Assembly (NCBI RefSeq): GCF_014873765.1
Contig: NZ_JADBGG010000002.1
Coordinates: forward strand, 186,001 to 250,000
Direction: 5' to 3'
Length of the DNA: 64,000 nucleotides
From: Desulfomicrobium macestii
Lineage (GTDB): Bacteria > Desulfobacterota > Desulfovibrionia > Desulfovibrionales > Desulfomicrobiaceae
Of the stretch, positions 18,388-31,442 are shown piece by piece. The position numbers and the translations under genes are program-made. The notes beneath the pieces were generated by a model. That model had not been told where the DNA came from, searched no databases, and was given only the letters and a program-made list of their open reading frames with translations. The number at the start of each line of letters is the position of its first letter. Position 1 is the first letter of the stretch.

Positions 18388-19792
18388 TCACGAACCGCGC
18401 TCAACGCCCCTTTGCTTGAGCAGTGCGTAGAGTCTGGGTCGGGACAGGCCCGAGAGACGGCAGGCGTTTGCGATTTCGCCCTTGCTGACCAGCATCAGAT
18501 TCTTGAGATACCACGTCTCCAGCTCGGCCATGTGCTTTTCACGATACTCCCTGAGGCTCGGGAAAGCCTCCCCGTCCGTGAGCGGTGGCGTCCTGTTTTC
18601 AAGTTCGGGCAGCTCCGCGACCAGGAGCCGGGCGACGTTGGCGCGAATGTTTCTGGACAGGTGCTGGGGGTAGAGGATGGGTTCGGTCCCGGCCCGGACC
18701 ACGGCCTGATCGAGGGCGTTGACCAGCTCGCGGATGTTTCCCGGCCATTCGTACTGCATGAGGGTGTCGAGAAAGTCCGGAGAGAAGCCTTTGTTGTCTA
18801 TGTTCAGCCGTTTGCAGGTGCGGCGCACGAAGTGACAGATGAGATCGTTCAGGTCGTCCAGCAGGTCGCGCAGGGGGGAGAGCTCAAGCCGTATCCCGCG
18901 CAGGCGGTAGAACAGGTCCCGCCGAAAGGTGTCGGCCCGGACCATGGCCTCAAGATTTCGATTGGTCGCCGCCACCAGCCTGAAATTGCTGGTGATCTCC
19001 TTTGCCCCGCCCACGGGACGGAAGCTGCGGCCTTCGAGCACGCGCAGGAAGACCTTCTGGGTGGACAGGGGCAGTTCACCGACCTCGTCCAGAAACAGGG
19101 TCCCGCCGTCGGCCTGCTTGACGAGGCCGATGGAGCGGTTCTCCGCGCTGGTGAACGCGCCGCGTTCATGGCCGAAGAGCATGCTTTCCACCAGGGTTTC
19201 GGGCATTGCCGCGCAATCGACCACCACGAAAGGCTTGCCCGCGCGCGAGCTGTTGGCGTGGATGGCCGGCAAAGAGCTCCTTGCCGGTGCCTGTTTCGCC
19301 GGTGATGAGCACGTTCACATCCGTGGATGCGGCCTGGGCCACGATGTCGAGGCAGGAGTTGAGCAGGCGGCTGTTGCCGACGATCCCTTCGCGCCGCAGG
19401 GAGACCGGCGCGCACTTGGCGGGCCGCTCGCGATGGTATTCTAGGGCCCGCTCCGCCAGGACCATGAGGCGCTGCATGTTCACGGGTTTGGGCATGAAAT
19501 TCCAGGCCCCGCCGCGGATGGCGGCCTCGGCCGCGTCCGGGTCGCGGCTTTTGGACATGACGATGATTTCCGGGCGCGACGGCACCTCGCGCAGGGTAGA
19601 CAGGAATTCCAGACTGTTCTTGCTGCCGGCCTCGTCGCCGAGCAGGACCAGGGAAAATTCGCCCACGTGCAGCATGGCAAGACCTTTGGACAGCGTCGTG
19701 CTGTGGGCCGCGTGCAGGTTGTGCCTGGCCAGTTCCGCCATCAGCGATTGGCAAAATGCCGCATCGCCATCGATGATCAGAATGTCGCTCAT
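18388..19792 (-). pseudogene. Sigma-54-dependent response regulator (NtrC family) with an internal frameshift
   Basis: Two overlapping frames together make one NtrC-type activator: a receiver domain (residues 1-120 from ATG 19792), an AAA+ domain and a Fis-type HTH (EIANACRLSGLSRPRLYALL). The first frame reads through GETGTGKELFA (Walker A) and then goes out of phase; the second resumes at AIHANSSRAGKPFVVVDC. Compared with the usual FARAIHANS, about two bases are missing near 19262-19273. GAFTSA replaces the usual GAFTGA. The receiver has Gly52 with Asp53 next to it where the phospho-acceptor is expected. As written, the gene gives a protein without a working ATPase; a sequencing error or programmed shift cannot be excluded. 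It is divergent from the hdr operon, its likely target. Confidence 0.85.
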
Positions 19793-19810
19793 GAAGACTC
19801 CCGCAGTGCT

Positions 19811-19969
19811 GTCTTGTCTGGCAAGACGATAATCAGGCTTTTTAGGGCTTCGCAAAGGTGAGTGTCGCCCGGTCCGGAAGGGCCTGCTCCAACCGGTGCG
19901 AGGACATGGCTCTCACCTACACTGTTTTGCTGTCTCGTCAAGTAAGACACTTCTCTTGTCCCAAGACAA
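19811..19969. promoter_or_regulatory. Cluster of GTCTTG/GACAA dyads between the regulator and the hdr operon
   Basis: Three inverted repeats share a TCTTGTC...AAGAC-like core: GTCTTG 19811-19816 with CAAGAC 19822-19827; TGTCT 19931-19935 with AGACA 19945-19949; TTGTC 19956-19960 with GACAA 19965-19969. The first lies in the leader of the regulator gene; the other two are about 280-320 bp upstream of the first hdr-operon gene. They are plausible sites for the divergent sigma-54 activator. Inference from symmetry and position. Confidence 0.45.
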
Positions 19970-20247: not shown

Positions 20248-20517
20248 ATGAAACGCAAATGGGACGCAAGAACCAAGGCGCGTATCGTGCTCGAAGGGCT
20301 CATGGGCGGGTGTGTGAACGAGATCTGCCGAAACCATGAGCTGCGACCGGGGCTGTACTATAAATGGCGGGGACATTTCCTGGAGCACTGCCACCTCATT
20401 TTCGAGGAGCAGCCCAGAGCCCCGAGTCAGTCGGACCTGGCTGCCGAGAACGAAAAGCTCAAGCGTCTGGTGGGCGAGTTGACCCTGGAATTGAACAAGG
20501 GCGGAAGTCTTCGCTGA
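20248..20517 (+). CDS. IS3 OrfA-like HTH protein heading the hdr operon
   Basis: An 89-aa protein resembling the DNA-binding OrfA of IS3-family elements: an HTH_Tnp_1 region (residues about 1-50, KRKWDARTKARIVLEGL, then ICRNHELRPGLYYKWR) and a short leucine-zipper-like coil (LAAENEKLKRLVGELTLEL). No OrfB transposase, terminal inverted repeats or target duplication is visible. It has a strong ribosome site (GGAGG) and lies 21 bp upstream of hdrA on the same strand. It may be a domesticated transposase fragment serving as a regulator or a structural DNA-binding protein, or simply a relic. Confidence 0.75.
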   Translation: MKRKWDARTKARIVLEGLMGGCVNEICRNHELRPGLYYKWRGHFLEHCHLIFEEQPRAPSQSDLAAENEKLKRLVGELTLELNKGGSLR

Positions 20518-20538: not shown

Positions 20539-22548
20539 ATGGCCAGAAGGATAGGAGTGTATGTCTGTCACTGCGGCTCGAACATCGCGGGCAAGGTGGA
20601 TTGTCCGGACGTGGCCGCTTTTGCACGGGGGCTCAAGAACGTCACGGTTTCGCGTGACTACCAGTTCATGTGCTCGGATCCCGGCCAGGACATGATCATC
20701 CGGGACATTAACGAACACGGGCTGGACCGCGTGGTTGTGGCCTCCTGTTCGCCGCGCCTGCATGAGAAGACATTCCAGAAGGCCTGTGCCCGGGCCGGGC
20801 TCAATCCCTACCTCATGCAGCACTGCTGCATCCGCGAGCACTGTTCATGGGTGACCGGTGACAAGGCCGAGGCCACGGCCAAGGCCAAGCATATCGTCGA
20901 GGCAGCCGTGCTTCGGGTGCGCAGGCATCAGGAGCTTCATTCCCGCGAGGTGGCCGTCGTGCCCGACGTCATGGTCGTGGGCGCGGGCATCGCCGGCATC
21001 CAGGCCGCTCTCGATGTCGCCCGCTCCGGGCATCGCGTCATCCTGGTCGAGAAGTCCCCGTCCATCGGCGGACACATGGCCCAGTTCGACAAGACTTTTC
21101 CCACCCTGGACTGCGCCGCCTGCATTTCCACTCCGAAAATGGTGGCCGTGGCCCAGGAACCCAATATTGACCTTCTGACCTGGAGCGAGGTGGAGGAGGT
21201 CACGGGCTTTGTCGGCAACTACACCGTCACCGTGCGGCGCAAGGCTCGTTACGTTCGCGAGGACATCTGCACGGGTTGCGGGGCGTGTCTGGAAAAATGT
21301 CCGACCAAGGTCTTGAGCGAGTTCGAGGAGGGTCTCGGCATGCGCCGGGCCATCTACCGCAATTCTCCCCAGGCGGTGCCAAGCACCCCGGTCATCGACG
21401 CCGAGCATTGCAAGATGCTCACCAAGGGCAAGTGCGGCGTCTGCCAGAAGACCTGTCCCACCGGAGCCATCGATTTCACCCAGCAGGACCGCCGGGAAGT
21501 CTACCATGTGGGCAGCGTGATCCTGGCCACGGGCTACGACACCATGGACCCGACCCCCATGACCGAATACGGGTTCGGCCGCTATCCGGAGGTCTATACC
21601 GCCCTGCAGTTCGAGCGTCTGAACAACGCCGTGGGCCCCACCGGCGGCAAGATCCTGATGAAGAACGGCGAGACCCCGAAGAGCGTGGCCATCATCCACT
21701 GCGTCGGCAGCCGCGACAAAAATTACCATGAGTACTGTTCGCGTACCTGCTGCATGTACGCCCTCAAGTACGACCACCTCATCAAAGACAAGGTCGGGCA
21801 CGGGGCGGAAGTCTACAATTTCTACATCGACATGCGTTGTTTCGGCAAAGGGTACGAGGAATTCTACCGCCGCGTTCAGGACGAAGGGGTGACCTTCGTG
21901 CGCGGCAGACCTTCTGAAGTCGTCCAGGAAAACGGCAAGCTGGTCGTGGTGGGCGAGGACACCCTGCTCGGGACTCGTCTGCGTGTGCCCGTGGACATGG
22001 TCGTGTTGTGCACGGCCATGGAGGCGCGCGCGGACACCACGGAAGTGGCCCGTGTTTTCGGCGTGTCCCAGGGCCGGGACGGATTTTTCCTTGAAGAGCA
22101 CCCCAAGCTCGGTCCCGTCTCCACGGCCTCGGACGGCATCTATCTGGCCGGAACCTGCCAGGGGCCCAAGGATATTCCCGACGCCGTGGCCCATGCCGCG
22201 GGCGGCGCGGCGCAGGCCCTGGCCCTGGCCGCGCGCGGGGTGGTGTCCATCTCCCCCACGACCTCCTGGATCAATCCGGACATCTGTGTCGGCTGCAAGA
22301 TGTGCATCGGGCTGTGCCCGTATTCGGCCATCGAGTTCGACGAGCGTCGCCACATAGCGGTCATCAACGAGGCCATGTGCAAGGGCTGCGGCAGCTGCGC
22401 CGGGCATTGTCCGAGCGGAGCGGCCCAGATCAAGCATTTCCGCCAGGTGCAGGTCTTCAACGAGATAGACGGTCTGCTGGACCGCAAGCCGGACATAATG
22501 GCCCTGATTGGAGATATTTACGAAACCGCGAACCGAGCAGAGGCGTGA
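20539..22548 (+). CDS. hdrA: HdrA-like FAD/iron-sulfur protein
   Basis: A 669-aa HdrA homologue. In order: an N-terminal HdrA segment with VYVCHCGSNIAG, a FAD-binding Rossmann motif VGAGIAG near residue 150, the flavin-site segment FPTLDCAACISTPKM, ferredoxin motif CTGCGACLEKCP (about 244-255), a second Cys cluster (CGVCQKTCP), and a C-terminal pair CVGCKMCIGLCP and CKGCGSCAGHCP (about 583-625). In methanogens and sulfate reducers HdrA is the flavin-bifurcating core that splits electrons between a low-potential ferredoxin and a high-potential acceptor. It has Cys, not selenocysteine, at the sites where some homologues have Sec. It is followed after 10 bp by mvhD. Confidence 0.95.
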   Translation: MARRIGVYVCHCGSNIAGKVDCPDVAAFARGLKNVTVSRDYQFMCSDPGQDMIIRDINEHGLDRVVVASCSPRLHEKTFQKACARAGLNPYLMQHCCIREHCSWVTGDKAEATAKAKHIVEAAVLRVRRHQELHSREVAVVPDVMVVGAGIAGIQAALDVARSGHRVILVEKSPSIGGHMAQFDKTFPTLDCAACISTPKMVAVAQEPNIDLLTWSEVEEVTGFVGNYTVTVRRKARYVREDICTGCGACLEKCPTKVLSEFEEGLGMRRAIYRNSPQAVPSTPVIDAEHCKMLTKGKCGVCQKTCPTGAIDFTQQDRREVYHVGSVILATGYDTMDPTPMTEYGFGRYPEVYTALQFERLNNAVGPTGGKILMKNGETPKSVAIIHCVGSRDKNYHEYCSRTCCMYALKYDHLIKDKVGHGAEVYNFYIDMRCFGKGYEEFYRRVQDEGVTFVRGRPSEVVQENGKLVVVGEDTLLGTRLRVPVDMVVLCTAMEARADTTEVARVFGVSQGRDGFFLEEHPKLGPVSTASDGIYLAGTCQGPKDIPDAVAHAAGGAAQALALAARGVVSISPTTSWINPDICVGCKMCIGLCPYSAIEFDERRHIAVINEAMCKGCGSCAGHCPSGAAQIKHFRQVQVFNEIDGLLDRKPDIMALIGDIYETANRAEA

Positions 22549-22558
22549 GGAGGATTGC

Positions 22559-22984
22559 ATGAACCAGGAATTTGAACCCGCCATTCTGGCTTTTGTCTGC
22601 AACTGGTGCACCTACACCGCCGCCGATCTGGCCGGAACCTCGCGCATGGTGCAGCAGCCCAATGTCCGCCTTGTGCGCATGATGTGCACGGGCATGGTCG
22701 ATCCCAAATATGTCATCAAGGCCCTGTTGTCCGGGGCCGACGGAGTGCTCGTCAGCGGCTGCCATCCCGGCGACTGCCACTACATAAACGGCAACTACAA
22801 GGCCCGGCGGCGGGTCAAGCTTTTAAACGAGATCCTGCCGCAGTTCGGCATAGACGAACGGCGGCTGCGCCTGACCTGGGTCGGGGCCAGCGAAGGCAAT
22901 GAATTTGCGGCCACGGTCAATAATTTCATCAATGAAATCCGAGAGCTCGGCCCGCTGGACGTGCGCGGTATGGCAGCCCTTTAA
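22559..22984 (+). CDS. mvhD: MvhD/FrhD-type electron-transfer subunit
   Basis: A 141-aa MvhD protein, the 2Fe-2S subunit that delivers electrons to HdrA. Conserved Cys are in FVCNWCTYTAADLAG (C14, C17), MCTGMVDP and GCHPGDCHY. All are Cys, whereas some methanogen homologues have Sec. GAGGAGG lies 5 nt before ATG 22559. Its position between hdrA and an FrhB-like gene suggests that it connects the FrhB-like input module to HdrA, as MvhD connects hydrogenase or formate dehydrogenase in methanogens. Confidence 0.95.
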   Translation: MNQEFEPAILAFVCNWCTYTAADLAGTSRMVQQPNVRLVRMMCTGMVDPKYVIKALLSGADGVLVSGCHPGDCHYINGNYKARRRVKLLNEILPQFGIDERRLRLTWVGASEGNEFAATVNNFINEIRELGPLDVRGMAAL

Positions 22985-23004: not shown

Positions 23005-24147
23005 ATGGCCACCACGGTACGAATTGAAGTTGGCGAACACGGCCCGGTTCCGGCCCTGCAGGATTTTTTCAGGAAATTGCTGGCGGACGAATCCCTGTCC
23101 GGCATCATGGTCCCCGTGCATCTCTTCGGCGGCGGCATGCCTATGCCGACCCTGGTCACCGATCCGGCCCAGCTGGATCGGGCCGACCCGCTGGCTCCGG
23201 CTTTTCCCATGAGCAGCGCGAAGCTCGTCTCGCGGCTGAGCAAGGGTTCGGCGGGGGAACGCTTCGCCGTGGTCATGCGCCCCTGCGAGATCCGGGCCTT
23301 CATGGAACTGGTCAAGCTCAATCAGGGCTTCCTTGAGGAGGTCATCCTCATCGGCATGGATTGTCCGGGAGCCTACGACAACATGCATTATCGCGATTTT
23401 CTCGGCGAGCGCGAGCCCATGGCCGCCAGCGCCGAATTCCACAAGGCCCTGGCCGAGGGCCGAAAGCCCGCTTCCGTCGAGCTGGCCGGAGCCTGCAAGG
23501 TCTGCGAGCACCCCACGCCGCAAGGCACGGACATTGTCGTCGGCCTTTTCGGGGGCGACATCTCTTCAGGCATCCAGATCATGGCCGCCAGTCCTCGCGG
23601 CGAAGCCCTGCTCGGGGCCATGGGGCTGCAGGCCCAGGAACCCGACGGGAAACGCGAGGCCGCCGTCGCCGCCCTGGTCGGTGAGCGTGAGGCGGCGCGG
23701 GACGCCATGTACGCCGACGTGCAGGAGCGGACCTCGACGCTGGAGAAGCTGGCCCAGTATCTGGGCTCCTGCGTGAACTGCTACAACTGCCGGGTGGCCT
23801 GCCCGGTCTGCTACTGCAAGGAGTGCGTCTTCAACACCGACGTCTTCGAGCACAAGCCCTGGCAATATCTGGATTGGGCCAAACGCAAGGGCAGCCTCAA
23901 GCTGCCTACCGACACCGTCTTTTACCATCTCACGCGCATGGCGCACATGAGTACGGCCTGCGTGGGCTGCGGCCAGTGTTCCAACGCCTGCCCCAACGGG
24001 GTGGAGGTCGTGGAGCTGTTCCGCACCGTGGCCGCCCGCACGCAGAAGAGTTTCGACTATCAGCCTGGACTCAGTCTGGACCAGGCTCCGCCCCTGACGG
24101 TGTTCAGGGAGGACGAATATCAGGATACGGTTTCGCACCTGGCTTGA
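23005..24147 (+). CDS. FrhB/FdhB-like iron-sulfur flavoprotein
   Basis: A 380-aa protein with an F420 hydrogenase/dehydrogenase beta-subunit-like region (FAVVMRPCEIRAFMELVKL, then VILIGMDCPG), a dense Cys cluster (CVNCYNCRVACPVCYCKEC from about residue 256) and a ferredoxin motif CVGCGQCSNACPNG (about 319). FrhB-type proteins carry FAD and 4Fe-4S centres and oxidise F420H2 or exchange electrons with ferredoxin or NAD(P)H. Since F420 use is not established here, the electron donor of this Hdr complex is open; this subunit is the likely entry point. It is located between mvhD and the HdrA fusion. Confidence 0.85.
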   Translation: MATTVRIEVGEHGPVPALQDFFRKLLADESLSGIMVPVHLFGGGMPMPTLVTDPAQLDRADPLAPAFPMSSAKLVSRLSKGSAGERFAVVMRPCEIRAFMELVKLNQGFLEEVILIGMDCPGAYDNMHYRDFLGEREPMAASAEFHKALAEGRKPASVELAGACKVCEHPTPQGTDIVVGLFGGDISSGIQIMAASPRGEALLGAMGLQAQEPDGKREAAVAALVGEREAARDAMYADVQERTSTLEKLAQYLGSCVNCYNCRVACPVCYCKECVFNTDVFEHKPWQYLDWAKRKGSLKLPTDTVFYHLTRMAHMSTACVGCGQCSNACPNGVEVVELFRTVAARTQKSFDYQPGLSLDQAPPLTVFREDEYQDTVSHLA

Positions 24148-24163: not shown

Positions 24164-27100
24164 ATGAGGAAACAATACGGCGCGTTGGTGGTGGGCGCGG
24201 GTATCGCCGGACTCCGGGCGGCTCTTGATCTGGCCGTGACCGGACACAAGGTGGCCCTGATCGACAAACGCCCCAGTCATGGCGGCATCCTGAGCCAGCT
24301 GGATTACCAGTTCCCTTCGGATCACTGCGGCATGTGCCGCATGCTTCCGCTCATGAGCCGGGATGCGTCCAGTCAGTTTTGTCTGCGTAAAGGCATGTTT
24401 CATGAAAATATAGATCTGATGCTTTCAACGGAGCTTGCGTCCCTGGAAGGTGAACCCGGCAAGTTCTTCGTCAGCCTGAGCAGGCGCTCCCCACTGGTCG
24501 ATCCGCACAAGTGCGTCAGCTGTGGGAAATGTTCCGAGGTCTGCCCGGTCAAGGTTCCGAGCGAATTCAACGCCGGGCTGACGAAGCGCTCGGCTGTCTA
24601 TTTGCCGGTGCCGCACGCCATTCCCAATCATTATGTCCTGGATCTTGATAATTGCATCCGCTGCTGGAAATGCCACGAAGTCTGTCCGACAGGGGCCATT
24701 GACCTCAAGTTCGAAGAGCGCGCGCGGTTCGGCATTCTGGTGGCGGACGAGGAGGAGCAGACCCGCTCCACGGTGCGCGAAAGCCTTGAGCATCTGCAAT
24801 TCCCGGTCTTTGAGGCGGCCGGTGGCCAGGAAGCCCTGGATTTGCTTGAGTCCGGCGCGTCGATCAATTTCGTGCTCGTGGGGCTCAATCTGCAGGGCGT
24901 GGATGCCCAGCGCGTCATGACCCGCGCCCAGGAACTCAGTCCCGGCATGCCCGTGGCCGTCTTGGCCGCCGCCGGGCAGGAAGAGGCTGCGGCCGATCTG
25001 GTGCGGCGCGGGGCGCGGGATCTGTTCATGAAGCCGCTCTCGTCCAAGAAGTTCGTGCCCTGGCTGGACAAGCACTACATGCGCATCATGTCCGACACCA
25101 CCGAAGAGCTGCAGGTCAGCGCGGTGATCCTGGCCGGAGGTTTCGACTGCTACAATCCCGACATGGACCTAAACGGCGGACGGGATATCTGGGGGTACGG
25201 CCATCCGGCCGTGCTGACCGCCGTGGAGTTCGAGCGTCTGCTGAGCGGCACCGGACCCACGGGCGGCAGGCTGACGCGGCCGGGTGACGGCAGGCCCGTG
25301 AACAGGATCGCCTGGATTCAGTGCGTGGGCTCGCGCGATGTGGGCAAGAACGCCGATTACTGTTCCTCGGTCTGCTGCATGTTTTCCATGAAGGAGGCCA
25401 TGCTGGCCAAGAAGGTCACGGACGGGGCGGTGGATGCCACCATCTTCTACATGGACATGCGCACCTTCGGCAAAGGCTGGGACGATTACCGGCAGAAGGC
25501 CGTGCAGCAGGGCGTGCATTTCGTGCGCAACCGGCCGCACTCGGTCGTGCCTGCCGAGGGCGGCGGGGTGCTGCTCGAATCGCTGAGCGACGACGGCACG
25601 CGCCGCTCGGAGGAATTCGACATGGTGGTCCTGGCCGTGGGCGCCCGGCCCCCGAGGGGTATGGACAAGTTCGCCGCCACGGTTGGCATCGAGACCAACG
25701 AGTGGGGCTTTTGCAAGACCCAGCCCTATGCCCCGGAGCGGACCAGCCGGGTCGGCGTGTTCGCGGCCGGATCGTTCGGCGAGCCCCGCGACATCTCCGA
25801 GTCGGTCATGCAGGCCGGTGCGGCGTCCGAGGCGGCGGCGCGCATGATCAAGATCTACGACGTGCTGGGGGCGGCTCCGGCGCCCGCGGAGCCGGACTAT
25901 CCGGATGTTTCCCGCGAGCCGGTGCGCACCCTGGTGGCCGTGTGCACCTCCTGTCCGACCCTGGGCAAGGTGGTGAACCTGGACGAGCTGGCGCACACCG
26001 TGGGCCGGGTCCATTCGGTCGGCACGGTGCTTCCCGTGTTCCAGGCCTGCACCGAAGCCGGCTGGAAGCAGATCCTTGAAACGGTCAAACAGAAGAAACC
26101 CAACCGCATTCTCATAGGGGCCTGCATGCCCTACGCCTACATTCCGCGCTTGAAAGAAATGGCCCGCACCGTGGGGCTCAACCCGGCGCTCATGGATGTG
26201 GTCGACGTGCACACCCCGACCTTCAACGGACGCGACTCCGTGGACGTGGCCCGCGAAATATTCTCCAGCCTGTCCATGGCCGTGGCCAAACTGCAGGGTG
26301 TCGATCCCACGCCGCCGGACGTGCTCATGGACGTGTCGCGCTCGGCGCTGGTGGTGGGGGGAGGCCTGGCCGGTCTGACCGCGTCCATGGCCATCGCCGA
26401 CCAGGGCTTCGGTGTCTGTCTGGTGGAGGCCGAGGAGGAGCTCGGCGGCATGGCCCTGCGCCTGCACACCCAGCTCGATGGCACGGACCCGCGCAAGTAC
26501 ATGGAGGACCTTGTCGCCCAGGTCGAAAAGCACCCGCGCATCAAGGTCTTCAAGGACGCGCGCGTGGTTCTTTCCCGAGGCAGCGCCGGACGCTTCCGCT
26601 CCGCCATAAGCGGCGACAATGGCATCTTCCCGCTGGAACACGGCGTGACCATTCTGGCCACCGGCGGTCATGAGGCCAAGATCTACGAGAGCGGATTCTG
26701 CGTGCACAGGACGGTCATGACCCACTTCGGGCTGGAGGAGAAACTGGCCACGGGCGCGCTTGACGTGGGCAGCCTTGGCGCGGTGGCCATGATCCAGTGC
26801 TGGCGGTCCCGCAAGGAAGGCGAGCGCAACTACTGCAGCCGCATCTGCTGTCCGGAGATGCTGAAAAACGTGCTGACCATGAAGGAGCGCAACCCCGACC
26901 TGCCCATTTATGTTTTCTACCGCGACATCATGGCCCAGGGCTTCCTTGAGGCCTATTACACCCAGGCGCGCAAGGCCGGTGTGATCTTCATCCGTTACGA
27001 TCTGGAGAAACCGCCCAAGGTGCGCTTTGTCGAAGGCAAGCCCGTGATCACCGCCCTGGACCCGATTCTGGGCAATGAAATAGAGGTGCACGCGGACATC

Positions 27101-27592
27101 CTGTCCCTGTCGAGCGGGGTGGAGCCGAACGATGTGGACGATCTGGTGGAGATCTTCGGGGTCAAGACCGACGCCAACGGATTCTTCCAGGAGGCGGACA
27201 GCAAATGGCGGCCCGTGGATTTCCTGAAGCAGGGAGTCTACATGTGCGGGCTGGCCCATTCGCCCCGGCGCATGGCCGAAACCGTGGCCTCGGCCAAGGC
27301 GGCGGCCCAGCAATCCCTGCGCATCCTCTCGGCGGGCAAGGTGGCCCGGGAGACCCTGGTGGCCACGGTGCGGCCGTCCCTGTGCTCCCTCTGTCAGGCC
27401 TGCGTGGCGGCCTGCCCCTACGGGGCGCGCACCGTGGATCTGGAGAACGAGCTCATACTGGTCGATGAGATGCTCTGTCAGGGCTGCGGAGCCTGCGCGG
27501 CGGTCTGCCCCAACAGCGCAACGGTGATCAAGGGCTTCCATGACGGTCCGATGATGGCGGTCATTGACGCCGCCCTGGAACAATTGGCCTAG
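24164..27592 (+). CDS. Tandem HdrA-HdrA fusion with an inserted receiver-like domain
   Basis: A 1142-aa protein with two HdrA modules. Module 1: FAD motif GAGIAG (11-16), HCGMC (54-58), ferredoxin motifs at C117-C127 and C164-C174. At about 189-307 a domain with response-regulator form is inserted: ILVADEEEQTR acidic pocket, FVLVGLNLQGVDA, and the conserved Lys in FMKPLSSKKF (K290). The phospho-acceptor Asp is replaced by Gly240. Module 1 then resumes (WIQCVGSRDVGKNADYCSS). Module 2 starts near residue 585, has an N-terminal CTSCPTLGK segment, FAD motif VGGGLAG (about 730) and two C-terminal ferredoxin motifs (about 1073-1115). Two flavins and several clusters in one chain suggest a branched electron path. 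The function of the receiver-like insert is unknown. Confidence 0.92.
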   Translation: MRKQYGALVVGAGIAGLRAALDLAVTGHKVALIDKRPSHGGILSQLDYQFPSDHCGMCRMLPLMSRDASSQFCLRKGMFHENIDLMLSTELASLEGEPGKFFVSLSRRSPLVDPHKCVSCGKCSEVCPVKVPSEFNAGLTKRSAVYLPVPHAIPNHYVLDLDNCIRCWKCHEVCPTGAIDLKFEERARFGILVADEEEQTRSTVRESLEHLQFPVFEAAGGQEALDLLESGASINFVLVGLNLQGVDAQRVMTRAQELSPGMPVAVLAAAGQEEAAADLVRRGARDLFMKPLSSKKFVPWLDKHYMRIMSDTTEELQVSAVILAGGFDCYNPDMDLNGGRDIWGYGHPAVLTAVEFERLLSGTGPTGGRLTRPGDGRPVNRIAWIQCVGSRDVGKNADYCSSVCCMFSMKEAMLAKKVTDGAVDATIFYMDMRTFGKGWDDYRQKAVQQGVHFVRNRPHSVVPAEGGGVLLESLSDDGTRRSEEFDMVVLAVGARPPRGMDKFAATVGIETNEWGFCKTQPYAPERTSRVGVFAAGSFGEPRDISESVMQAGAASEAAARMIKIYDVLGAAPAPAEPDYPDVSREPVRTLVAVCTSCPTLGKVVNLDELAHTVGRVHSVGTVLPVFQACTEAGWKQILETVKQKKPNRILIGACMPYAYIPRLKEMARTVGLNPALMDVVDVHTPTFNGRDSVDVAREIFSSLSMAVAKLQGVDPTPPDVLMDVSRSALVVGGGLAGLTASMAIADQGFGVCLVEAEEELGGMALRLHTQLDGTDPRKYMEDLVAQVEKHPRIKVFKDARVVLSRGSAGRFRSAISGDNGIFPLEHGVTILATGGHEAKIYESGFCVHRTVMTHFGLEEKLATGALDVGSLGAVAMIQCWRSRKEGERNYCSRICCPEMLKNVLTMKERNPDLPIYVFYRDIMAQGFLEAYYTQARKAGVIFIRYDLEKPPKVRFVEGKPVITALDPILGNEIEVHADILSLSSGVEPNDVDDLVEIFGVKTDANGFFQEADSKWRPVDFLKQGVYMCGLAHSPRRMAETVASAKAAAQQSLRILSAGKVARETLVATVRPSLCSLCQACVAACPYGARTVDLENELILVDEMLCQGCGACAAVCPNSATVIKGFHDGPMMAVIDAALEQLA

Positions 27593-27610: not shown

Positions 27611-28177
27611 ATGAACCAGACGCAAGCACACGCATGGAGCCCGGATGCCGTTACCCGGGAGATTCTTGAAGAGCTGCGCGGCGAGATCGGGGCCTGCATG
27701 CAGTGCGGGACATGCACCGCGTCATGCCCCAACGGCTTCGCCATGGACATAACGCCCCGGCAGATGTGGCGGATGGTGCAGTTCGGAATGCTGGACAGGA
27801 TTCTTGAAAGCAAAACGTTCTGGATGTGCTCTTCCTGCTACATGTGCACCCTGCGCTGTCCGCGCGGATTGAAGCTGACGCGGGCCATGGGGGCGCTGAA
27901 GCGGCTGGCCCGGCAGCGGGGCACATGGAAGATCAGGAAGAACAGCGCGTTTTACGACGCATTCATGGAAAACGTGGAGAAGTACGGGCGTGTGCAGGAG
28001 ACGAGCCTCATGCCCGGCTACTTCCTGAAAAGCCGCGACCCGCTCCTGCCGCTGCACTACCTGCCTCTGGGGGTGCGCATGATGCGGGCCGGCAAGCTGC
28101 ACCCGCCGAGCAGCGCCCAGAAAGGGCGGCTGAAGGAGCTTTTCGCCAAGGTGCGCGAGATGGAGGAGGAATCATGA
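27611..28177 (+). CDS. hdrC: HdrC-like ferredoxin subunit
   Basis: A 188-aa HdrC protein with two 4Fe-4S motifs, CMQCGTCTASCP (C29-C39) and CSSCYMCTLRCPRG, followed by a helical tail. In Hdr complexes HdrC passes electrons from HdrA to HdrB. AGGGGAGG lies upstream of the ATG. Its stop overlaps the hdrB start by 4 bp, so the two subunits are coupled. Confidence 0.94.
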   Translation: MNQTQAHAWSPDAVTREILEELRGEIGACMQCGTCTASCPNGFAMDITPRQMWRMVQFGMLDRILESKTFWMCSSCYMCTLRCPRGLKLTRAMGALKRLARQRGTWKIRKNSAFYDAFMENVEKYGRVQETSLMPGYFLKSRDPLLPLHYLPLGVRMMRAGKLHPPSSAQKGRLKELFAKVREMEEES

Positions 28178-29091
28178 AATACGCCTACTATCCAGGCTGC
28201 TCGCTGCAGGAAAGCGCCCGGGAGTTCGACGTGTCCGTGCGGGCCGTCATGGCCGCGCTGGGGGTGGAGCTCGTTGACATACCGGACTGGACCTGTTGCG
28301 GGGCCAGCGCGGCCGAGCCGGTCAGCGCGCTCATGAATTACGCACTCCCGGCCCGCAATCTCGCCCTGGCCGAGCAGGAGCTACCGGGGCTCGATGTGCT
28401 CGCCCCGTGCAGCGCCTGCTACCTCAATCTCCTGAAGGTCAACCGCGAAGTCGTCGGCAACAAGGATCTGCACGCGCGGGTCAATGAGGCCCTTGGCGCG
28501 TCGGGCCTGAATTACCGGGGCACCGTTGGGGTGCGGCACATTCTGGACGTGCTGGTCAACGACATCGGGCTTGATCCCATAAAGGAGCGGATCGTCAACG
28601 ATCTCGGAGGGATGCGCGTCTCCGCATACTACGGATGCCAGATCCTGCGTCCCTACGAGGTTTTCGATGATCCCCGGCACCCGGTCAGCATGGACAACGT
28701 GCTCTCGGCCCTGGGAGCCAAGCCGCTGCCGTGGGACATGGGCAACAAATGCTGCGGCGCTTCCCTCATGGTCACGCATCCGGAGGTGGCCATGCATTCC
28801 GTGGCCGCCATTCTGGGAGCCGCCGATGGCTCCGACGCCGTGGCCACGGTCTGTCCGCTCTGCCAGATGAATCTGGAGGCATATCAGCACGATTCGGCGG
28901 CCGGGGGGCACCATGTGCCGATACTGTATCTGACCCAGCTCATGGGCCTGGCGTTCGGCCTGGAGGAACCCTCCGTGTTGCTGGACAAGAACATGAGCAT
29001 GGATGGGAGCATGCGCGCCGGGATCAGATCCCGGGCCTGGCGGCACGAAGCGCCAGGCGAAGGTGACGAGACGCTTGCCCGCGAAACCTGA
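28174..29091 (+). CDS. hdrB: HdrB-like catalytic subunit (two CCG domains)
   Basis: A 305-aa HdrB homologue. It starts MKYAYYPGCSLQESA and has two CCG domains: TCCGASAAEP with CSACYLNL, and YYGCQILRP, KCCGASLM with CPLCQMNLE. In methanogens HdrB carries noncubane 4Fe-4S clusters that reduce CoM-S-S-CoB; in sulfate reducers the natural disulfide or other acceptor is unknown, possibly DsrC-trisulfide (inference). The start is set by the ATGA overlap with hdrC and a preceding GGAGGA. About 40 extra C-terminal residues (SMDGSMRAGIRSRAW...) look like a disordered tail. Confidence 0.94.
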   Translation: MKYAYYPGCSLQESAREFDVSVRAVMAALGVELVDIPDWTCCGASAAEPVSALMNYALPARNLALAEQELPGLDVLAPCSACYLNLLKVNREVVGNKDLHARVNEALGASGLNYRGTVGVRHILDVLVNDIGLDPIKERIVNDLGGMRVSAYYGCQILRPYEVFDDPRHPVSMDNVLSALGAKPLPWDMGNKCCGASLMVTHPEVAMHSVAAILGAADGSDAVATVCPLCQMNLEAYQHDSAAGGHHVPILYLTQLMGLAFGLEEPSVLLDKNMSMDGSMRAGIRSRAWRHEAPGEGDETLARET

Positions 29092-29112: not shown

Positions 29113-30027
29113 ATGTTCAAGGACATCATCGTAGGCGTGACGCCCAGCGGCGTGGATGCATGCGCGGTTGAATCCGCGGTGGGTTTCGCCAAGAAGTTCG
29201 AGTCCAATCTTTATCTGGTCCACGTGGCGGGAATGGAGCAGGGCTGGGGTTCCATCGAGACCCTGGAGGCCTCGGGCGAGACGGCCCGGCTGGAGGCGCG
29301 CATCCGAGAAATGTACGCTTCCCTGCTGGCCGACCTGCCGAGCGTCGCGGTGCAGGTCGTGGCCGGGATTCCGCATAACGAGCTTCTGCGCCTGGCGCGC
29401 AAGAAGGACACCGACCTGGTGGTTATGGGGCCGCACACCAAGGAATACGAGGAAAAGCGGGCCCAGATGTGGGGCATGGCCGGCAGCACCCTGGAACGGG
29501 TCAGCCAGAAGGCGCGCTGTCCGGTCATGATCGTGCATCGCGCCGTGGAGTGCAAGGATCCGGCGTTCTCCAACATCCTCGTGGCCACGGACTTCTCCGA
29601 TCAGTCCGAGTGCGCGGTCAGCTACGGCGGCCAGATGGTCAGGCAGTACAAGGCCCGGCTCACGCTCATGAACGTCAGCGAGACCTCGACGGATTCGCCG
29701 CAGGGCCGAGCCGATATCGAAGCCAGGCTGCAAGCCGAATACGGCGACCGGCTCCAGGGCATCGACGATTTCGTCTATGCGGGCCGCTTCGGTCGGCCGG
29801 CCATGGAAATTCTGAATATGGCCACGCAGATCGGCGCGGATCTGATCATCATGGCTCACCATTCCAAGGCCGACGACCCGGAAGAAGCCTTCCTCGGCTC
29901 CACCGTGGTGCAGGTCTCGGTCAATGCGCCGTGTCCGACCATGAGCGTCAACCGCCACTTCGACCTGCGTTGCGGGCTGATGTACGATCAGACCGGTCAG
30001 GTGGTTGATGTCGCGGCCACCGTCTAG
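29113..30027 (+). CDS. Universal stress protein with two UspA domains
   Basis: A 304-aa protein with two tandem UspA folds. Domain 1 begins FKDIIVGVTPSGVDA and has a nucleotide-loop region GPHTKEYEEK...GMAGSTLERV; domain 2 begins FSNILVATDFSDQSECAV and ends MAHHSKADDPEEAFLGSTVVQV. The first domain has a long insert in its loop and the second keeps the GST part, so ATP binding is possible but not certain. It lies 21 bp after hdrB, within the operon, which suggests a link between stress or energy state and the Hdr complex. Confidence 0.93.
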   Translation: MFKDIIVGVTPSGVDACAVESAVGFAKKFESNLYLVHVAGMEQGWGSIETLEASGETARLEARIREMYASLLADLPSVAVQVVAGIPHNELLRLARKKDTDLVVMGPHTKEYEEKRAQMWGMAGSTLERVSQKARCPVMIVHRAVECKDPAFSNILVATDFSDQSECAVSYGGQMVRQYKARLTLMNVSETSTDSPQGRADIEARLQAEYGDRLQGIDDFVYAGRFGRPAMEILNMATQIGADLIIMAHHSKADDPEEAFLGSTVVQVSVNAPCPTMSVNRHFDLRCGLMYDQTGQVVDVAATV

Positions 30028-30122: not shown

Positions 30123-31442
30123 ATGTTGAACGGAAAGATAATCGAGCTTGGTCGCGGGAAAAGTACCTTCATGGAAACAGTCCGGGAAATTTTGCCCGAG
30201 GGGGGGAACCTGAACATGTGTCTGACCTGCGGGGCATGTTCGTCCGGATGCCCGGCTTCCGGCCTGGAAGGCATGGACCCCCGCAAGTTCCTGCGCATGG
30301 CGGCGCTCGGCATGGACGAGGAAGTTCTGTCCACGCCCTGGGTCTGGATGTGCACCATGTGTCAGCGCTGCATTTACGCCTGTCCCATGAAGATCGACAT
30401 TCCCCGTCTGGTCTACGAGGCCAGGGCCGCCTGGCCGAGGGAGACGCGCCCCAAGGGCATCATGGGCTCCTGCGACATGGCGCTCAAAAACGAGAGCGGA
30501 AGCGCCATGGGCACCGCGCCGGATGATTTCGCCTTCGTGGTCGATGACATCCTGACGGAATGCCGGGAGGCGCAGCCCGAATTCGAGGACATGGAAGCGC
30601 CCATCGACAATGAAGGCGCGGAATTCTTCCTCAACCAGAACTCGCGCGAGCCCGTGACCGAGCCCGACGAGCTGCTCCCCTTGTGGAAGATCCTGCATCT
30701 GGTCGGGGCGGACTGGACCTACGGGTCAAGGGGCTGGGCCGGGGAGAACTACTGCATGTTTCTGGCGGACAACCAGAGCTGGGAGCGTTTGACGCGTCAA
30801 TCGGCGGACAAGGCCAGCGAGCTGGGGTGCAAGGTCTTTCTCAATACCGAGTGAGGCCACGTAACATACTCAGTCCGGGCCGGACTGGAAAAATTTGGTA
30901 TCGAGCATCGATTCGAAGTAAAAAACATCTATGAATATTATGCAAAATGGATTCGGGAAGGCAAACTCAAGGTCAATTCCGAATGGAACAAGGATCTCAA
31001 GATAAAATTCACGGTGCAGGACCCGTGTCAGATCGTCAGGAAAAGTTATGGAGACGCCATCGCCGATGACCTGCGTTTTGTCGTGAAATCAGTTGTCGGC
31101 GAGGAAAACTTCATCGACATGCACCCGAATCGTTCCAACAACTACTGTTGCGGTGGTGGCGGAGGATTCCTGCAATCGGGGTTCAAGGATCAGCGCCTGG
31201 CCTACGGGCTGACCAAGGACGAGCAGATAAAGGCCACCAAAGCCGATTACTGCATCGCCGCCTGTCACAACTGTCATGCCCAGATTCATGAACTGAGCGA
31301 ACACTACGAAGGACATTACGGAGTGGTGCACCTGTGGACCCTGATCTGCCTCTCGCTTGGCATCCTCGGGCCCAACGAGCGGACGTATCTGGGGGATGAT
31401 CTGAAGGATATAAACGTTTTTCATCCTGAAATTGCAGTCTAG
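30123..31442 (+). CDS. HdrD/GlpC-like Fe-S oxidoreductase, selenoprotein (Sec at codon 244)
   Basis: The frame runs from ATG 30123 to TAG 31440-31442 with one in-frame TGA at 30852-30854. Reading it as Sec gives a 439-aa protein with two N-terminal 4Fe-4S motifs (C33-C43, C77-C87) and two CCG-type domains. Sec244 lies in GCKVFLNTE-U-GH, where a Cys is expected. The second domain is intact (DPCQIVRKS, NNYCCGGGGGFLQSG, CIAACHNCHAQIHEL). Coding similarity to HdrD-like proteins continues smoothly on both sides of the TGA, and a hairpin of SECIS form begins 16 nt after it. Likely role: partner or terminal oxidoreductase of the Hdr complex acting on a thiol/disulfide or quinone. Taken as a stop, the TGA would cut the protein after its first half. 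Confidence 0.87.
30871..30887 (+). promoter_or_regulatory. Bacterial SECIS hairpin of the HdrD-like gene
   Basis: CAGTCC (30871-30876) pairs perfectly with GGACTG (30882-30887) around the loop GGGCC. The apical loop begins 22 nt after the UGA and starts with GG, matching the form and spacing known for bacterial SECIS elements that bind SelB. Confidence 0.75.

Follow-up and report, generated by a model that had tools for sequence, protein, structure and literature searches.

Analysis of a 64,000-nucleotide stretch of Desulfomicrobium macestii DNA (hereafter the window) revealed a response-regulator receiver embedded in a tandem HdrA flavoprotein (24164..27592, + strand). The account that we favour, and regard as fairly probable as a whole, is that a receiver which ancestrally served as a phospho-switch in type II HdrA has here become a pseudo-receiver whose structural or docking role does not depend on phosphorylation. 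Two-component systems are known to act mostly on transcription or on dedicated signalling outputs, and the HdrA family is central to anaerobic energy conservation; in this protein the receiver lies in the core of a flavin and Fe-S enzyme, adjoining its presumed low-potential exit. No description of a receiver within HdrA was found in the open-access literature searched.

The open reading frame encodes 1142 residues with no stops, and its assignment to the tandem (type II) HdrA proteins follows from Pfam matches and a profile alignment with 5odc. Residues 8–185 align to 5odc positions 146–313 and residues 314–509 to positions 317–511, both stretches covering FAD and inserted-ferredoxin parts; residues 584–762 align to positions 2–180, which hold the N-terminal domain plus the beginning of the FAD domain, and residues 958–1140 to the C-terminal FAD and ferredoxin parts. 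The N-terminal domain is therefore absent from module 1 and the inserted ferredoxin domain from module 2, in agreement with the type II HdrA (PMC12054007), and two FAD (thioredoxin-reductase-like) domains, the mark of that type, are present. The first-pass annotation had described two full HdrA modules; the tandem fusion stands, but the modules are complementary halves rather than full copies. The full-length model (pLDDT 86.5, pTM 0.86) had the HdrA of Hdr complexes as its best Foldseek matches, and the protein missed the NCBIfam HdrA/HdrA2 equivalog cut-offs (642 bits against 1100 for NF040770 and 499.5 against 1400 for NF041778). The inserted ferredoxin domain of module 1 (residues ~110–184; 24491..24715, +) carries two 4Fe-4S motifs and, by homology (PMC9012536), would be the exit to soluble ferredoxin. 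Module 2 (residues 584–1140; 25913..27583, +) consists of the N-terminal domain, the second FAD domain without inserted ferredoxin and the C-terminal ferredoxin, all placed by Pfam and the 5odc alignment. Glu357 (25232..25234, +) is the equivalent of HdrA E356, whose role is taken from PMC12054007, and Lys410 (25391..25393, +) that of K409; both are invariant in 65 rows, and alignment by eye gives E858 (64/65) and K901 (65/65) as their candidate counterparts in module 2. C58, the equivalent of Cys197, is likewise invariant, and the N-terminal domain with which Cys197 is complementary (PMC9012536) occurs in module 2 only. Judging from these conserved residues and the operon alone, this HdrA would be capable of electron bifurcation.

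Residues ~188–311 (24725..25096, +) were confirmed to be a CheY-type receiver. As the first-pass annotation had proposed, the insert follows the ferredoxin motifs of module 1: it lies between 5odc positions 313 and 317, the point at which the chain passes back from the inserted ferredoxin domain into the FAD domain. Pfam Response_reg (PF00072) matches residues 191–297 with E=1.9e-12 in the whole protein and E=6.8e-14 for the insert alone, whose 52.4 bits exceed the curated cut-off of 30.2, and the insert sequence matched PDB receivers down to E=7e-9. AlphaFold2, given the insert aligned with 60 relatives, predicted a (beta-alpha)5 CheY-like fold of five strands and five helices (pLDDT 89.8, pTM 0.84); Foldseek returned 531 PDB matches to this model at E<=0.001, and those listed were nearly all receivers or response regulators, the receivers matching with TM of about 0.7–0.87. 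The acidic pocket and the conserved Lys290 (25031..25033, +) remain, and the phospho-acceptor position (Asp57) is occupied by Gly240 (24881..24883, +), all as annotated at first pass; the Mg-binding acidic pair is Asp195-Glu196. The conserved Thr/Ser after beta4 is gone as well (Ala268), so that of acceptor Asp, Thr/Ser and Lys the window's receiver retains the Lys. A receiver fold embedded in an HdrA-type flavoprotein and its status here as a pseudo-receiver, with the phosphate site lost, are both supported.

The insert is widespread rather than strain-specific. Full-length relatives were found in Desulfomicrobium (84–98% identity) and Pseudodesulfovibrio (69–71%), widely in Desulfovibrionales and also in other classes of Desulfobacterota. 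In one class, that of G581, 119 of 389 sampled genomes (about 31%) gave a match at E<=1e-225, nearly all such matches spanning the receiver region and some being truncated; a single scan of genome contigs, using patterns taken from this one protein, gave matches in Desulfomicrobium and Pseudodesulfovibrio only. A FastTree backbone tree, built without the insert columns, placed the receiver-bearing HdrAs in one clade with starred support. Receiver-free sisters outside this clade (L128/L129 and L130) have 4–5 residues at the insert site. L153, which has no receiver, falls inside the clade and may represent either a loss or a second gain; L103, marked noREC in the tree, is a truncated contig. Among the receivers compared, the 61 inserted ones cluster with one other, that of a Usp-REC-Usp protein encoded at L123 (node support 0.76), which is consistent with a single source.

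Outside Desulfovibrionales all five catalytic residues (DD/D/T/K) were found in 73 of the 74 receivers examined (32/32 in the main alignment and 41/42 at further loci). The sole exception, L246, has lost one acid and the Thr and kept the Asp, apparently an independent degeneration by its sequence. Within Desulfovibrionales all 58 receivers examined are degenerate: none has the DD pair, 48 retain the conserved Lys, and the Asp57 position holds Gly in 31 (the window included), Asp in 24 and Ser in 3. According to the FastTree tree Asp57 was lost more than once, in the window's clade and in L064/L074, with Ser arising in two places. The Asp-to-Gly change is conserved in Desulfomicrobium, Pseudodesulfovibrio and near relatives, but not across the whole family. 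In the majority of the other Desulfobacterota examined the receiver has kept its catalytic residues and a kinase is usually encoded close by, so the form in the window looks derived.

A histidine kinase is encoded within 9 kb at 14 of 17 intact loci, mostly on the same strand, at 16/19 degenerate loci with Asp, at 3/3 with Ser and at 3/17 with Gly. These counts cover the loci flanked by 5 kb or more upstream and 4.5 kb or more downstream, which share ancestry and are therefore non-independent. The intact-receiver relatives encode PAS/HisKA/HATPase kinases and REC-HATPase proteins in or beside the operon. It weighs against a kinase acting on HdrA that these operons also encode further receivers, and that at the remaining 3 of 17 intact loci the stretch read contains no kinase gene. 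At Desulfovibrionales loci that have a kinase, it is mostly divergent and lies beside a sigma-54 regulator whose own receiver mostly keeps its Asp, and in the Pseudodesulfovibrio-like loci read the receiver of the sigma-54 regulator mostly has Gly at that position. The idea that loss of Asp57 always goes together with loss of the kinase was considered and discarded, as it is contradicted by L191 and L200 (Gly with a kinase) and by L188 and L058 (Asp with none). In the window the divergent NtrC-type regulator (18388..19855, − strand) is frameshifted in this assembly and reads VLLGD at its own Asp57 position; its two frames correspond to a single 488-aa open frame in the close relative L186.

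It is conceivable, though unlikely, that the receiver here is a decaying passenger, which persists solely by virtue of its independent folding and for want of a deletion that has become fixed. Erosion of the catalytic residues in several ways would fit such decay, as would the pN/pS of the receiver, which is about 1.8 times that of the backbone in degenerate lineages: medians for receiver and backbone are 0.31 versus 0.17 in Desulfomicrobium, 0.48 versus 0.26 in the Pseudodesulfovibrio-like group and 0.56 versus 0.30 in the Asp57-keeping Desulfovibrionales set, compared with 0.13 versus 0.215 in the active group. All these values, however, are well below 1, the degenerate receivers remain under purifying selection, and in every one of the 58 Desulfovibrionales sequences the domain is present and free of stops. 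Moreover, the alpha5/linker segment (residues 298–311, VPWLDKHYMRIMSD; 25055..25096, +), variable in the active group, follows a conserved motif in Desulfovibrionales (VPWLDKxYxRxxSD), and this segment together with R254 and E257 is more conserved in the degenerate set than in the active group. W300, D302, K303, R307, S310, D311, R254 and E257 are 92–100% conserved in the degenerate set; the active set has fixed catalytic columns, and in the degenerate one constraint shifts from these to the residues just listed. This pattern of sequence conservation would point to a new function of the alpha5/linker face. An artefact of gene fusion or assembly has a negligible probability, as full-length open frames occur in many independent genomes, several of them on single contigs.

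A rather improbable alternative is that a separate signalling protein, such as the universal stress protein (Usp) or a receiver or regulator of a neighbouring gene, docks on the pseudo-receiver, which would so confer regulation without its own phosphorylation. The operon does encode a Usp with two Usp domains by Pfam (29113..30027, +), and at nearly all of the Desulfovibrionales loci read HdrB is followed by such a gene. In the HdrA operon of L123 the Usp-REC-Usp protein (L123:13707-15017) has the receiver closest to the HdrA-inserted ones among those compared, at 57–68% identity. Against this, the Usp-REC fusion was seen in one locus only; the link to the stress protein raised at first pass is suggestive at most. 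Docking to the sigma-54 regulator, also proposed there, has no support. No sigma-54 promoter was found at the operon head, and a scan of operon heads gave a site within 2 mismatches in only 1 of 41 degenerate loci, which leaves transcriptional rewiring unsupported.

The conversion of a phospho-switch into a structural part, which we prefer, would have proceeded as follows. In what was apparently a single event, in some ancestor among the Desulfobacterota, the receiver entered a type II tandem HdrA at the junction of inserted ferredoxin and FAD domains. Most lineages would have retained it as a canonical phospho-acceptor, in many cases alongside genes for a PAS/HisKA histidine kinase and further receivers; we infer phosphotransfer from kinase to HdrA in these relatives, where the phosphorylated domain would probably gate the flow of electrons, or the docking of a partner, at the low-potential exit to ferredoxin. 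In Desulfovibrionales the phospho-chemistry appears to have been lost with the acid pair and, in the usual case, the Thr/Ser; several lineages, Desulfomicrobium among them, have also lost the acceptor Asp. The domain would have been kept as a fixed part, to judge by sequence probably a brace or a docking surface acting through the alpha5/linker face. We have moderate confidence in the broader proposal that in many Desulfobacterota an HdrA-type electron-bifurcating complex is switched directly, a histidine kinase phosphorylating the receiver within the catalytic subunit, and that Desulfovibrionales froze this inherited part; this would amount to post-translational control of electron bifurcation by a two-component system. 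If the intact receivers are phosphorylated, cells could adjust electron bifurcation directly and fast. The series from intact relatives to the Asp-lacking forms of Desulfovibrionales looks as if it preserves, step by step, how a switch turned into a structural element.

The protein resembles type II HdrA (PMC12054007; fused HdrA 3/4 in PMC9012536) in its two FAD modules per chain, the complementarity of N-terminal domain and Cys197 and the E356/K409 equivalents, and differs in that the ferredoxin domain inserted in module 1 is followed by an inserted receiver. Unlike in the ANME fusions (PMC9012536), where the module order is reversed, it is module 1 that lacks the N-terminal domain. In type III HdrA (PMC12054007, PMC9012536) the inserted ferredoxin domain is likewise the site of a foreign insert, yet that insert is a redox GltD/NfnB-like domain and not a signalling one. 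With PF00072 receivers (NtrC-type, Spo0F, CheY) the insert shares the fold, the Lys and the acidic pair, as well as all five residues in relatives outside Desulfovibrionales, but in the window it lacks the phospho-acceptor Asp and is embedded in an enzyme core. An Asp-to-Gly change is also seen in DVU0749 (PMC3333781), which, unlike the protein described here, is a transcriptional regulator. FixT (PMC7078487) likewise couples a receiver to Fe-S chemistry, although it has its own Cys motif; an Fe-S-binding receiver of this kind was ruled out here, as the insert has no Cys.

Several other features of the operon deserve mention, all on the + strand. At its head lies a gene for an 89-aa HTH_Tnp_1 protein, transposase OrfA-like by domain search (20248..20517), which was found by motif in 16 of the 21 Desulfovibrionales loci checked, has one strong copy in the genome and is possibly a domesticated transposase regulator; a conserved block upstream of the operon, at first considered as a DNA element, proved to be this small coding gene. 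It is followed by HdrA1 (669 aa; 20539..22548, from profile matches), an MvhD/FlpD-like subunit (22508..22984, with a putative start; PF02662, E 7.6e-54) and an FrhB/FdhB-like Fe-S protein (23005..24147, by Pfam). HdrA1 is plain in the window but contains an additional GltD-like NAD(P)H module at intact-receiver loci (L120:7961-11365, L122:522-3956 and L124:3891-6968). Downstream of the tandem HdrA, profile matches identified HdrC (27611..28177) and HdrB (28168..29091, start approximate), the latter with two CCG domains. Beyond the Usp gene, an HmcF/TmcB-like CCG protein (30123..31442) has an in-frame TGA at 30852-30854 (LNTE*GHVTYS), which probably encodes selenocysteine, and this gene appears as two open frames in many relatives.
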